Source: an uncultured delta proteobacterium (GTDB lineage Bacteria; Desulfobacterota; Desulfovibrionia; Desulfovibrionales; Desulfovibrionaceae). From it: a stretch of DNA of 64,000 bases. Location: positions 62,001-126,000 of the forward strand of contig CAIMRY010000031.1 in NCBI GenBank assembly GCA_903843965.1. The letters are read 5' to 3'. The first letter of the stretch is position 1. Every line of letters starts with the position of its first letter. Of this stretch, positions 43,884-60,177 are shown in pieces. A program made the position numbers and the translations under genes. The notes beneath the pieces were generated by a model that saw only the letters and a program-made list of their open reading frames with translations, had not been told where the DNA came from and ran no database searches.

Positions 43884-44675
43884 ATGAGCGAGCTCACCCT
43901 GCTGTTTTCAAAAAACACCGGCCAGATCCCTGGCCAGCGCTTCCTGTTGTTCGTGGGCCAGACCCTGCAGCCTGGCGTGCCCTGCGCCCAGACGGCCGGA
44001 CCCCTGGCCCTGCGGCCTGGGCATGTGCTGCGCGGCGAGCAGGAGGAGCACCGGGTGCTGGGGCGGCTGTGGTGGCCGGGCCAGGCCCAGATGCCCGACG
44101 CGGCCTGCTGGCTCCTGGAGACCCTGGTCCCTGCGCCCTCCGGCGTGGAGGACGAGCGCAGGCTCCTGGCCTCGCGCAGCGGGTTCGCCGTGGCCTGGAT
44201 CACCCTTTCGGACAAGGGCGCGGCCGGGCAGCGCGTGGACGCCTCCGGCCCGCTGGTGGAGGAGCTGGTGCGCGCGGCCATGCCGGTGTCTTTGGCGCGC
44301 GGGTTCGTGCTGCCGGACGAGGAGCGCGGCATCCGCGGCCTGTTGACGCAGCTGGCCCTGCACGACGGCTTTGACCTCATCTGCACCACGGGCGGCACGG
44401 GCGTGGCCCCGCGCGACGTGACCCCGGAGGCCACCCTGGCCGTCATCGAAAAGCGCCTGCCGGGCTTTGAGCGGGCCATGACCATGACCAGCCTGGCCAA
44501 GACCCCGCATGGCGCTGTTTCGCGCGCGGTGTGCGGCACGCTCGGCAACGCCGTCATCGTGAACCTGCCGGGCAGCCCCAAGGCCGTGCGCGAGTGCCTG
44601 GGCGCGCTCATTCCGGCCCTGGCCCACACCATCGAGAAGCTCCAGGGCGACCCCTCGGATTGCGCGGCAGTGTAG
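43884..44675 (+). CDS. MoaB/MogA-type molybdopterin adenylyltransferase
   Basis: 263-residue protein. The C-terminal part (about 95-255) is the MoaB/MogA fold that binds molybdopterin: WITLSDKGAAG, CTTGGTGVAPRDVTPEAT and NLPGSPKAVRECL. It adenylates molybdopterin for metal insertion. The first 90 residues are an extra domain (starting MSELTLLFSKN) that I do not recognise. Molybdo- and tungsto-enzymes are expected in this group. Confidence 0.88.
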   Translation: MSELTLLFSKNTGQIPGQRFLLFVGQTLQPGVPCAQTAGPLALRPGHVLRGEQEEHRVLGRLWWPGQAQMPDAACWLLETLVPAPSGVEDERRLLASRSGFAVAWITLSDKGAAGQRVDASGPLVEELVRAAMPVSLARGFVLPDEERGIRGLLTQLALHDGFDLICTTGGTGVAPRDVTPEATLAVIEKRLPGFERAMTMTSLAKTPHGAVSRAVCGTLGNAVIVNLPGSPKAVRECLGALIPALAHTIEKLQGDPSDCAAV

Positions 44676-44791
44676 CTGCTTGCATCTTGCGGTTTGCGGG
44701 GCCCTGGTATAAACAGTTGTTTGAAAGCGGTCGATACAGCAACAGGCGCCACTTCGCCTGTCACTCGCATACTGTCATGAGGATACTGAAC

Positions 44792-46231
44792 ATGTGCACC
44801 AAAGCCCTTCGACATGCCGTGGCGCTCAGCTTGGCGCTGTGCCTTGCCGGTCCGGCCCTGGCCCAGGAACAGGCCCCGGCCCCGGTCGGGACTCCGGCCC
44901 TGGTCGAGACTCCGGCCCCGGCCCCGGCCAAAACCGTGGCTCCGGCTCCCGTTGCGCCCACAGCCCTGCCCGTGCCCTCCACGCTGGATCTCAAGCAGAG
45001 CGTGGAGCGCGGCCTGGCGGCCAACCCGACCATTGTCGGGGCCCGCGCCCAGCTTCTGGGTTCGGACTACATGGTCAACTCCTCCATGGCCGACTTCTTT
45101 CCCACGGCCAAGGGCACCTACGGCTTTTCCCGCTATGGCGAGAAGCCCAAGACCACCACCGGGGCCGTCGCAGGCGACCAGACCACCTGGACCGGCAACC
45201 TGAACATCCACCAGCCGATCTTCGTGGGCTTCAAGCTGTTGAACACGCACCAGAAGGCGGTGTTGACCAAGGAGCAGAACGACGCCAACCTGACCCAGGC
45301 CGAGCTGTCGCTCATCAGCGCCATCCAGACCAATTTCCTGGCCCACCTGAAGGCCAGGATGGACGTGAAAAGCGCCCAGGACTCGGTGGAGCGCCTCCAG
45401 TCGCAGCTCAAGGTCACCCAGGCCTTCTTCGACGTGGGCCTGAAGCCCAAGCTCGACGTGCTCCAGGCCGAGGTGGACCTGGCCACGGCGGAGCAGAATC
45501 TGCTCATAGCCAAGAATTCCCACGACACAACCCGGGCCAAGCTCAACTCGCTGTTGAACCTGCCCCTGGAGGCCCCGATCGACTACGCCGGCGAGCTGGT
45601 GTACGCGCCCTTCGGCCTGGACCTGAACGAGTGCCTGAGCAGGGCCTACAAGAACCGCCCGGACATCCTGATGGGCATCAAGAGCGTGCACATCGCCGAG
45701 AAGGACGCGGGCATAACCGCCAGCGACTTCTACCCGCAGGTTACGGCCGACATGGACTTCTACAGGAAGGGCGACGGCCCGGGGCTTTCCGGCAGCCCGA
45801 ACATGTCCGACACGAGCAAGTCCTTCTGGACCATCGGGGCCAACGCCTCCTGGACCTTCTTCCAGTGGGGCAGCACCTTCTACAAGTACAAGAGCGCGGA
45901 TGAGACCGTGAACAAGGTCCGCGCGGCGCTGGAGAACACCCGCCTTGGCGCGGGCTACGAGGTCAAGCAGGGCCTGCTTTCACAGCGCGCCGCAGCAGAC
46001 CGCATCGGCGTGGCCAAGAAGAGCGTGGAGGCCGCCCGCGAGGCCTACCGCATGGCGCTCGCACGCTATCAGGCCCAGGTCGGCACCAATACCGACGTGC
46101 TGATCGCCCAGTCCACTCTCAGCACCAGCGAGGCCCAGCTTTCCCAGGCGCTCTCGGATTACCAGACGGCCATTTCAAACCTGTACGTGTCCATGGGCGA
46201 AAAGAATCTCGAACTCTCCACCCTTAAATAA
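44792..46231 (+). CDS. TolC-family outer-membrane channel
   Basis: 479-residue outer-membrane efflux protein. A signal peptide (1-25, ALAQ) is followed by a Pro/Ala-rich linker repeating APAPVGTPALVETPAPAPA, then two OEP repeats of long coiled coils typical of TolC (e.g. DLKQSVERGLAANPTIVGARAQ, FDVGLKPKLDVLQAEVDLATAEQNLLIAK). ATG at 44792 is preferred for GAGGA upstream; ATG at 44777 is in frame. No pump or adaptor gene adjoins. The next gene is a selenoprotein starting 10 bases on. Confidence 0.92.
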   Translation: MCTKALRHAVALSLALCLAGPALAQEQAPAPVGTPALVETPAPAPAKTVAPAPVAPTALPVPSTLDLKQSVERGLAANPTIVGARAQLLGSDYMVNSSMADFFPTAKGTYGFSRYGEKPKTTTGAVAGDQTTWTGNLNIHQPIFVGFKLLNTHQKAVLTKEQNDANLTQAELSLISAIQTNFLAHLKARMDVKSAQDSVERLQSQLKVTQAFFDVGLKPKLDVLQAEVDLATAEQNLLIAKNSHDTTRAKLNSLLNLPLEAPIDYAGELVYAPFGLDLNECLSRAYKNRPDILMGIKSVHIAEKDAGITASDFYPQVTADMDFYRKGDGPGLSGSPNMSDTSKSFWTIGANASWTFFQWGSTFYKYKSADETVNKVRAALENTRLGAGYEVKQGLLSQRAAADRIGVAKKSVEAAREAYRMALARYQAQVGTNTDVLIAQSTLSTSEAQLSQALSDYQTAISNLYVSMGEKNLELSTLK

Positions 46232-46240
46232 GGGGGGGGA

Positions 46241-46462
46241 GTGGGTTTTCTGTCTTCCTACCGCAGGCGGCCGGAGCCGCAGGCCCTGGAGGGCCTGCGC
46301 TGCCCGGCCTGCGGCGGGGGCCTGACCGTCAACCGGGCCTGACGCGAGGTGAGCCTGCGCTGCAAGGTCTGCGGCGCCACGCATCCCATCCGCGACTTCT
46401 CCGGGCAGCTGGATGAGGATTTTGAGGAGGAGGTGGCCTTTGTGCCCCTGGACCGCCTGTGA
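46241..46462 (+). CDS. Selenoprotein: small dual-CXXC zinc-ribbon protein with in-frame TGA (Sec)
   Basis: 73-residue protein when the TGA at 46340-46342 is read as selenocysteine (residue 34). CPAC (21-24) and CKVC (41-44) are two CXXC pairs of a zinc ribbon, with Sec between them (NRA-U-REVSLRC); the acidic end is DEDFEEEVAF. The frame is open on both sides of the TGA and both halves are needed for the four cysteines. A SECIS-like hairpin lies at 46357-46377. I recall an NCBI family called dual CXXC motif small (seleno)protein that this appears to match. GTG at 46241 is the first start after the tolC stop. Otherwise it would be a pseudogene with a nonsense codon. Confidence 0.72.
46357..46377 (+). 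promoter_or_regulatory. Bacterial SECIS element
   Basis: Hairpin GCGCTGCA-AGGTC-TGCGGCGC: 8-bp stem (one G-U pair) and 5-base loop with GGT. The apex GCAAGGTCTGC is almost that of E. coli fdhF (GCAGGTCTGC). The loop G is 24 bases past the TGA, inside the accepted range for SelB recruitment. Confidence 0.7.
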
Positions 46463-47444: not shown

Positions 47445-47474
47445 GCCGTGGCCCGTGTGACGGGCCGCCCAATT

Positions 47475-47562
47475 CCGAATCCTGAGAAGAAGGCATCCGC
47501 ATTCTGAGAAGAAGGCATCCGCATTCTGAGAAGAGGGCATCCGCATTCTGAGAAGAGGGCAT
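47475..47562. repeat. Four tandem copies of a 22-bp unit
   Basis: Copies at 47475-47496, 47497-47518, 47519-47540 and 47541-47562. The consensus is CCGCATTCTGAGAAG followed by AAGGCAT or AGGGCAT. Intergenic, after the lytic transglycosylase; 22 is not a multiple of 3. No spacers, so not CRISPR. A likely variable-number repeat. Confidence 0.9.
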
Positions 47563-47758
47563 CCGCAGCGGTTGTCCGCACGTCCCGGACGTTGGCGGCG
47601 CACAGGCCGGAAGGCGACGGAAATAAAGCCGCTTCTCGCCAGCCTGTGTTCGCGGTGGAGCGCCTTTGCCCCTCGGCGTGGCGGCCCAGCGCCATTGCCG
47701 GAAGCGCACGGAGCAGGCAGCGCCGTAATGGACGCGCTGGGAGTTGGCGGACGTGCCG
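47563..47758. other. Intergenic spacer, no feature seen
   Basis: About 200 bases between the repeat and the convergent GT4 gene. No ORF with plausible composition, no tRNA, and no hairpin with a T-run was found. Confidence 0.5.
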
Positions 47759-59770: not shown

Positions 59771-59845
<75 letters not shown>

Positions 59846-59854
59846 ACGAAACGA

Positions 59855-59929
<75 letters not shown>

Positions 59930-59934
59930 GACGA

Positions 59935-60009
<75 letters not shown>

Positions 60010-60021
60010 TGCTCTTTTTCG

Positions 60022-60050
60022 GGGACCGGCTTCGTGCCGGTCCCTGTTTC
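60022..60050 (+). terminator. Hairpin after tRNA-Gly copy 2
   Basis: Nine-bp GC stem (60022-60030 / 60036-60044) with loop TTCGT, followed by TGTTTC. A weak T-run, so partial termination is likely. Confidence 0.5.
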
Positions 60051-60102
60051 ACCCCCCCCCGGCGGGCTTTACAGTCGATTGCCGCCGGGCGCTCCACAAC
60101 GA

Positions 60103-60177
<75 letters not shown>

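Follow-up and report, generated by a model that had tools for sequence, protein, structure and literature searches.

The closest described relatives of the gene analysed here are small prokaryotic proteins with selenocysteine (Sec, U) or cysteine between two CXXC pairs. The available text of a 2026 review (PMC13188914), which is where we found the accession NF041197 in the literature, lists it as 'Dual CXXC motif small protein (hypothetical protein OS_HP3)', a prokaryotic selenoprotein with the motif RxU, and gives the same accession to a second entry, 'hypothetical protein DW', whose motif is GxU. The deep-Sep article, in its accessible part, reports DW from two Desulfosarcina genomes and says that its new families have Cys homologues (PMC12013277). 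Selenoprotein members with the pattern U/CxxU are also listed, in the accessible part of PMC9312934, for the FmdB family.

We analysed a 64,000-nucleotide stretch of DNA (the window) from an uncultured delta proteobacterium of the Desulfovibrionaceae, in which positions 46241 (GTG) to 46462 of the forward strand, with one in-frame TGA taken as Sec, form a single open reading frame of 73 residues that ends at a second TGA (46460-46462). The translation, VGFLSSYRRRPEPQALEGLRCPACGGGLTVNRAUREVSLRCKVCGATHPIRDFSGQLDEDFEEEVAFVPLDRL, places U34 (TGA at 46340-46342, + strand) between CPAC (residues 21-24, 46301-46312, +) and CKVC (residues 41-44, 46361-46372, +), in agreement with an earlier note, made from the sequence alone, that had joined the two halves across this TGA. 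With Cys written for Sec, the protein matches NF041197 (CxxC_Se_CxxC) over its full length (profile 1-53 of 53) at 75.8 bits against a cut-off of 40, and a six-frame search that keeps the TGA still scores the gene at 65.8 bits; no match exceeded the Pfam cut-offs. It has the traits of the family, namely two CXXC pairs, Sec or Cys between them at a fixed column and RxU (here RAU), and we found no feature that sets it apart from OS_HP3. We thus consider it very probably a genuine selenoprotein of the known family NF041197, a judgement that draws on sequence comparison. The earlier note had called the selenoprotein undetected, which does not hold, as a curated model and, in its available text, the 2026 review already cover the family; only this genome's member is new, the selenoprotein family being already in databases and reviews. 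A search for literature on the window's genus together with selenocysteine found none.

Within the genus, 13 of 15 genomes have a match, 12 of them (the window included) with the TGA, and in a wider sample of the class 253 of 297 genomes match, 250 above the cut-off. Full rows were searched again in 80 of these 297 genomes, chosen mostly for their weaker scores, and gave 77 rows above the cut-off, with one internal TGA in 57 and none in 20, and 11 further rows below it, all with a TGA. For comparison we assembled 133 main-family genes: 62 Sec genes (47 of the 57 TGA rows, two from the 297-genome search, 12 from the genus and one main-group row below the cut-off) and 71 genes without the TGA (the 30 top-scoring ones of the 297-genome search, one from the genus genome G011, 20 from the 80-genome search and 20 picked from the 297-genome search). 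At the column of residue 34 these genes carry TGA (62), TGC (57) or TGT (14), and no other codon. The genes at loci L026-L068 were located with a pattern that demands Cys or a stop at this column; it hit exactly once at each locus, so none was lost for carrying another residue, and the other 40 Cys genes were read at a fixed offset. The check that the earlier note had proposed, for Cys or TGA in homologues, thus came out in its favour, with no unrelated sense codon at residue 34.

Both Cys of the second CXXC are kept in all 62 Sec and all 71 Cys genes, and those of the first in 53 of 62 and 71 of 71, respectively. Eight of the nine departures replace the first pair with C-x-H (L100, L105, L106, L108, L111, L115, L116 and L117). 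Rows with and without the TGA coexist in single genera (g1, g7 and g13), so a switch between Sec and Cys probably took place several times. The genus member that lacks the TGA, in G011 (L056), has TGT at the column, and its genome retains tRNA-Sec.

The window's genome encodes the means to decode the codon. All four components that the earlier note had asked for are there, with selA, selB, selD and tRNA-Sec (selC, 82.9 bits) above their cut-offs; selA and selB lie on the contig of the window, separated by roughly 1.7 kb. Its selD (L023 1501-2427; G000:C9:74481-75407) has one in-frame TGA of its own, which we take to resemble that of Sec-containing SelD. A search for tRNA-Sec in the 80 class genomes, with E values up to 1e-10 and strict filters, found it in 48 of the 50 other genomes with a TGA gene (the two that gave no hit are 81% and 84% complete), in 24 of 26 genomes with a Cys gene and in the other four. 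As many genomes use Cys yet retain tRNA-Sec, Sec is not indispensable. A second TGA-bearing match in the window's own genome (L002, E = 0.159) has no CXXC pair on the matched strand and was taken as chance. Pooled over 11 pairings (not independent) of the window with relatives in its genus, the uncorrected pN/pS is 0.58 for the 20 codons before the TGA and 0.32 for the codons after it, these later codons being under purifying selection.

A bacterial SECIS hairpin occupies 46357-46377 (+), with a stem of 46357-46364 and 46370-46377 around a loop at 46365-46369, and takes in the codons for the second CXXC. The earlier note had a hairpin at this place, although it put the spacing at 15 bases and the hairpin begins 14 bases past the TGA; its likening of the apex to that of E. 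coli fdhF stands, as GCAAGGTCTGC resembles GCAGGTCTGC, the likeness lying in the apex GC(A)AGGTCTGC. The fdhF stretch used here has a match in 5368 of 5426 E. coli genomes, and the two listed matches are 100% identical and lie in annotated fdhF. The two elements differ in that GGTCT begins 23 nt past the TGA in the window and 18 nt past it in this fdhF stretch, and in that the window's hairpin also encodes a CXXC. Folding energy is unremarkable for GC-rich DNA (z of -1.74, -0.20 and +0.45 over 29, 46 and 67 nt), and an Rfam search of the gene stretch returned ten matches at E values up to 10, all under their gathering scores and none a bacterial SECIS. Taken on its folding energy, the hairpin says little, and the comparison with relatives carries the case.

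For this comparison the 62 Sec genes were aligned without gaps and set against 500 shuffles. Of the 496 cells of the stem, 89.5% are paired, a proportion that falls to at most 53.4% when the partner is slid by one to three columns. Both sides changed in 44 cells against 15.9 in shuffled alignments, and the covariation score is 0.348 against 0.228, and none of the 500 shuffles reaches either value or the paired proportion; two of the five structure measures do not exceed the shuffles, namely the number of pairs with a double change (reached by 453 of 500) and that of further pair types (313 of 500). Relatedness of the sequences inflates the other measures, and part of the covariation tracks base composition, the U-A pairs of columns 19/37 occurring in loci with 29-52% GC. 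At the same columns 31 Cys genes stay at shuffle level (60.8% paired against 60.2%), and the remaining 40 Cys genes are paired at 62.5%. A structure-conserved hairpin shortly after the UGA is thus found where the codon is UGA, with covariation in the Sec genes and none in the Cys genes. Changes in the stem shift amino acids jointly, the residues being mostly L-R-C..C-G in GC-rich members and L-Y-C..C-N in several AT-richer ones. Since the hairpin also codes for the CXXC, RNA and protein constraints can be separated: Pro follows the first Cys of this pair in none of the 62 Sec genes and in 38 of the 71 Cys genes (and in one of ten genes of the sister group below).

Ten loci (L074-L083, match from local position 2501) carry GxU instead of RxU and fall below the NF041197 cut-off of 40, with 31.9-39.5 bits for the five proteins scanned with Cys for Sec. 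A profile of this group, with a first pass that scored at most 23 candidates per genome, matches 24 of the 297 class genomes at E values up to 1e-6 and has no match in the window's genome. All 24 rows have one TGA; ten of them were read, and the two weakest, in long open frames, may be chance matches. No neighbours are shared within the group beyond pairs of loci. These proteins have the same two CXXC pairs as the window's protein, with Sec between them, but GxU where the window's protein has RxU; GxU is also the motif of DW, which the available text of the review places under NF041197. On motif and accession rather than sequence comparison, the group is probably the published DW, and so probably known too.

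A fold can be proposed for the protein at low confidence. A structure model built from five close sequences has a mean pLDDT of 62.3 (69 to 80 over residues 21-50) and a pTM of 0.43; in it, strands span residues 27-33 and 36-41, and the turn that joins them holds residue 34. Searches of the PDB by sequence and by fold gave no strong match, and none by fold at E of 0.001 or lower; the weak ones are zinc ribbons such as those in small subunits of RNA polymerases, among them the Pol III RPC10 ribbon by Foldseek (E = 0.06, 41% over 32 columns), and matches to zinc domains of topoisomerase I, PriA and ATCase (Z up to 4.4) may reflect a common arrangement only. Sequence likeness is similarly weak to the zinc ribbons of Trm112 and HypA, whose cut-offs are not reached, and to that of FmdB over the CXXC frame (TIGR02605, 16.9 bits, under a cut-off of 31.3); the Sec of FmdB sits within CxxC, whereas that of the window's protein lies between two pairs. 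Taken together, the weak model and weak matches suggest a zinc ribbon whose Sec lies at the turn of a hairpin. If this fold is right, the four Cys and a zinc would lie at one end and Sec at the other, so that Sec would be a lone selenol and would form no joint centre with the CXXC pairs. The C-x-H of eight Sec genes is easier to reconcile with a metal site than with a redox pair; with the one other departure, it also means that the four-Cys zinc site is not universal. The strong redox centre of Sec and two CXXC pairs that the earlier note had envisaged remains conjectural; the four Cys look like zinc ligands, at low confidence, and Sec sits at the predicted turn.

The neighbours are those that the earlier note had named. 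Upstream lies an outer-membrane efflux (TolC-type) gene (44531-46231, +; PF02321 on 44621-46231), given here as the longest open reading frame, with a true start that is probably later, and the GTG of the selenoprotein gene follows its stop by nine bases; a G-rich stretch 5' of this GTG could be a ribosome-binding site. Downstream is a lytic transglycosylase gene (SLT_2, PF13406; 46413-47444, +), whose longest frame overlaps the small gene. The only ATG, GTG or TTG starts listed in this frame ahead of its signal-like stretch are 50, 41 and 23 nt upstream of the small gene's end, and the next one is 103 nt past it, so the overlap is likely, as the note had it. Beyond the transglycosylase gene, and before a glycosyltransferase gene, is a 22-bp tandem repeat of 4.3 copies (47474-47567). 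Rfam at gathering scores reports only four tRNAs over the whole window, three tRNA-Gly(gcc) and one tRNA-Cys(gca) clustered at 59771-60177.

Three other readings of the locus have to be weighed, the first being that the TGA is an ordinary stop, in a pseudogene or through a sequencing error in a Cys gene. A standard frame search does end at this TGA and the energy of the hairpin is unexceptional; against this, the same TGA is shared by 12 of 13 matches in the genus and is also present in further genera, the codons past it are under purifying selection, and the hairpin covaries in genes with the TGA but not in those with Cys. On the genus-wide TGA and the selection past it we reject a pseudogene or sequencing error, which leaves the ordinary stop a very small probability, and the TGA at 46340 is almost certainly decoded as Sec. 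The Sec/Cys exchange, the Sec-specific covariation, the sel machinery and the conservation past the TGA together bear out the selenoprotein that the earlier note had proposed. Such a selenoprotein could still use its Sec mainly as a structural element or metal ligand rather than as a redox catalyst, in line with the hits to the zinc ribbons of HypA, Trm112 and RNA polymerase subunits and with the C-x-H of eight members, which still looks metal-binding. These matches are, however, all weak or under their cut-offs, the residue exchanged for Sec is Cys in 71 of 71 genes and Sec is usually retained for its reactivity, and we hold this role to be possible though rather unlikely.

The neighbours, which the earlier note had placed in envelope work, lend themselves to a third proposal, in which the protein is an envelope-linked factor that acts with the adjoining transglycosylase and TolC-type protein. 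Both genes accompany it in the 13 genus genomes, the window's included, and among 49 Sec loci outside the genus (four that repeat genus genomes being left out of the neighbour counts) a TolC-type gene is found upstream at 13 and a transglycosylase gene nearby at 18, in one case on the other strand and in another about 0.8 kb away. The pair is kept in only part of the class: both are present at two of the 30 top-scoring Cys loci (flanks of 1.5-3 kb), the neighbours in other clades are a poly(A) polymerase, FtsZ, an HI0933-like flavoprotein and a UvrC-like protein, and no partner was common to all sampled class loci, one representative of each neighbour cluster being scanned. The N-terminus, MGFLSSYRRRPEP, moreover has, as judged by eye, no hydrophobic signal stretch. 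Only some members of the class, and of the family, have this arrangement, and an envelope role appears improbable.

As to the selenoprotein itself, the coding frame, the Sec/Cys exchange, the hairpin covariation and the presence of the machinery are carried by comparison across genomes. The hairpin at 46357-46377 would recruit SelB with Sec-tRNA, and the ribosome would insert Sec at UGA 46340. The two CXXC pairs would then bind one zinc in a zinc-ribbon fold, with the lone Sec (Cys in relatives), preceded two residues earlier by Arg (RxU), at the turn away from the zinc. There it may react as a lone selenol with a thiol, a peroxide or a disulfide, or bind a metal or partner; we put the chances of a redox nucleophile at about even. 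In the genus and some of its neighbours, where the genes for the TolC-type protein, the selenoprotein and the transglycosylase follow one another and the last two overlap or adjoin, it is conceivable, as a long shot, that translation is coupled and that selenium supply tunes this cell-wall enzyme through the UGA codon. If so, a UGA left undecoded at low selenium would halt ribosomes roughly 70-100 nt short of the transglycosylase start, and less of this enzyme would be made.

Whichever role applies, a small protein widespread in the class (253 of 297 genomes) uses Sec in some genomes and Cys in others, within a single genus too (12 TGA, one Cys), with tRNA-Sec mostly retained. The hairpin that doubles as code for a CXXC makes the constraints on RNA and protein separable, and the function of the protein could be probed in its Sec and Cys forms.
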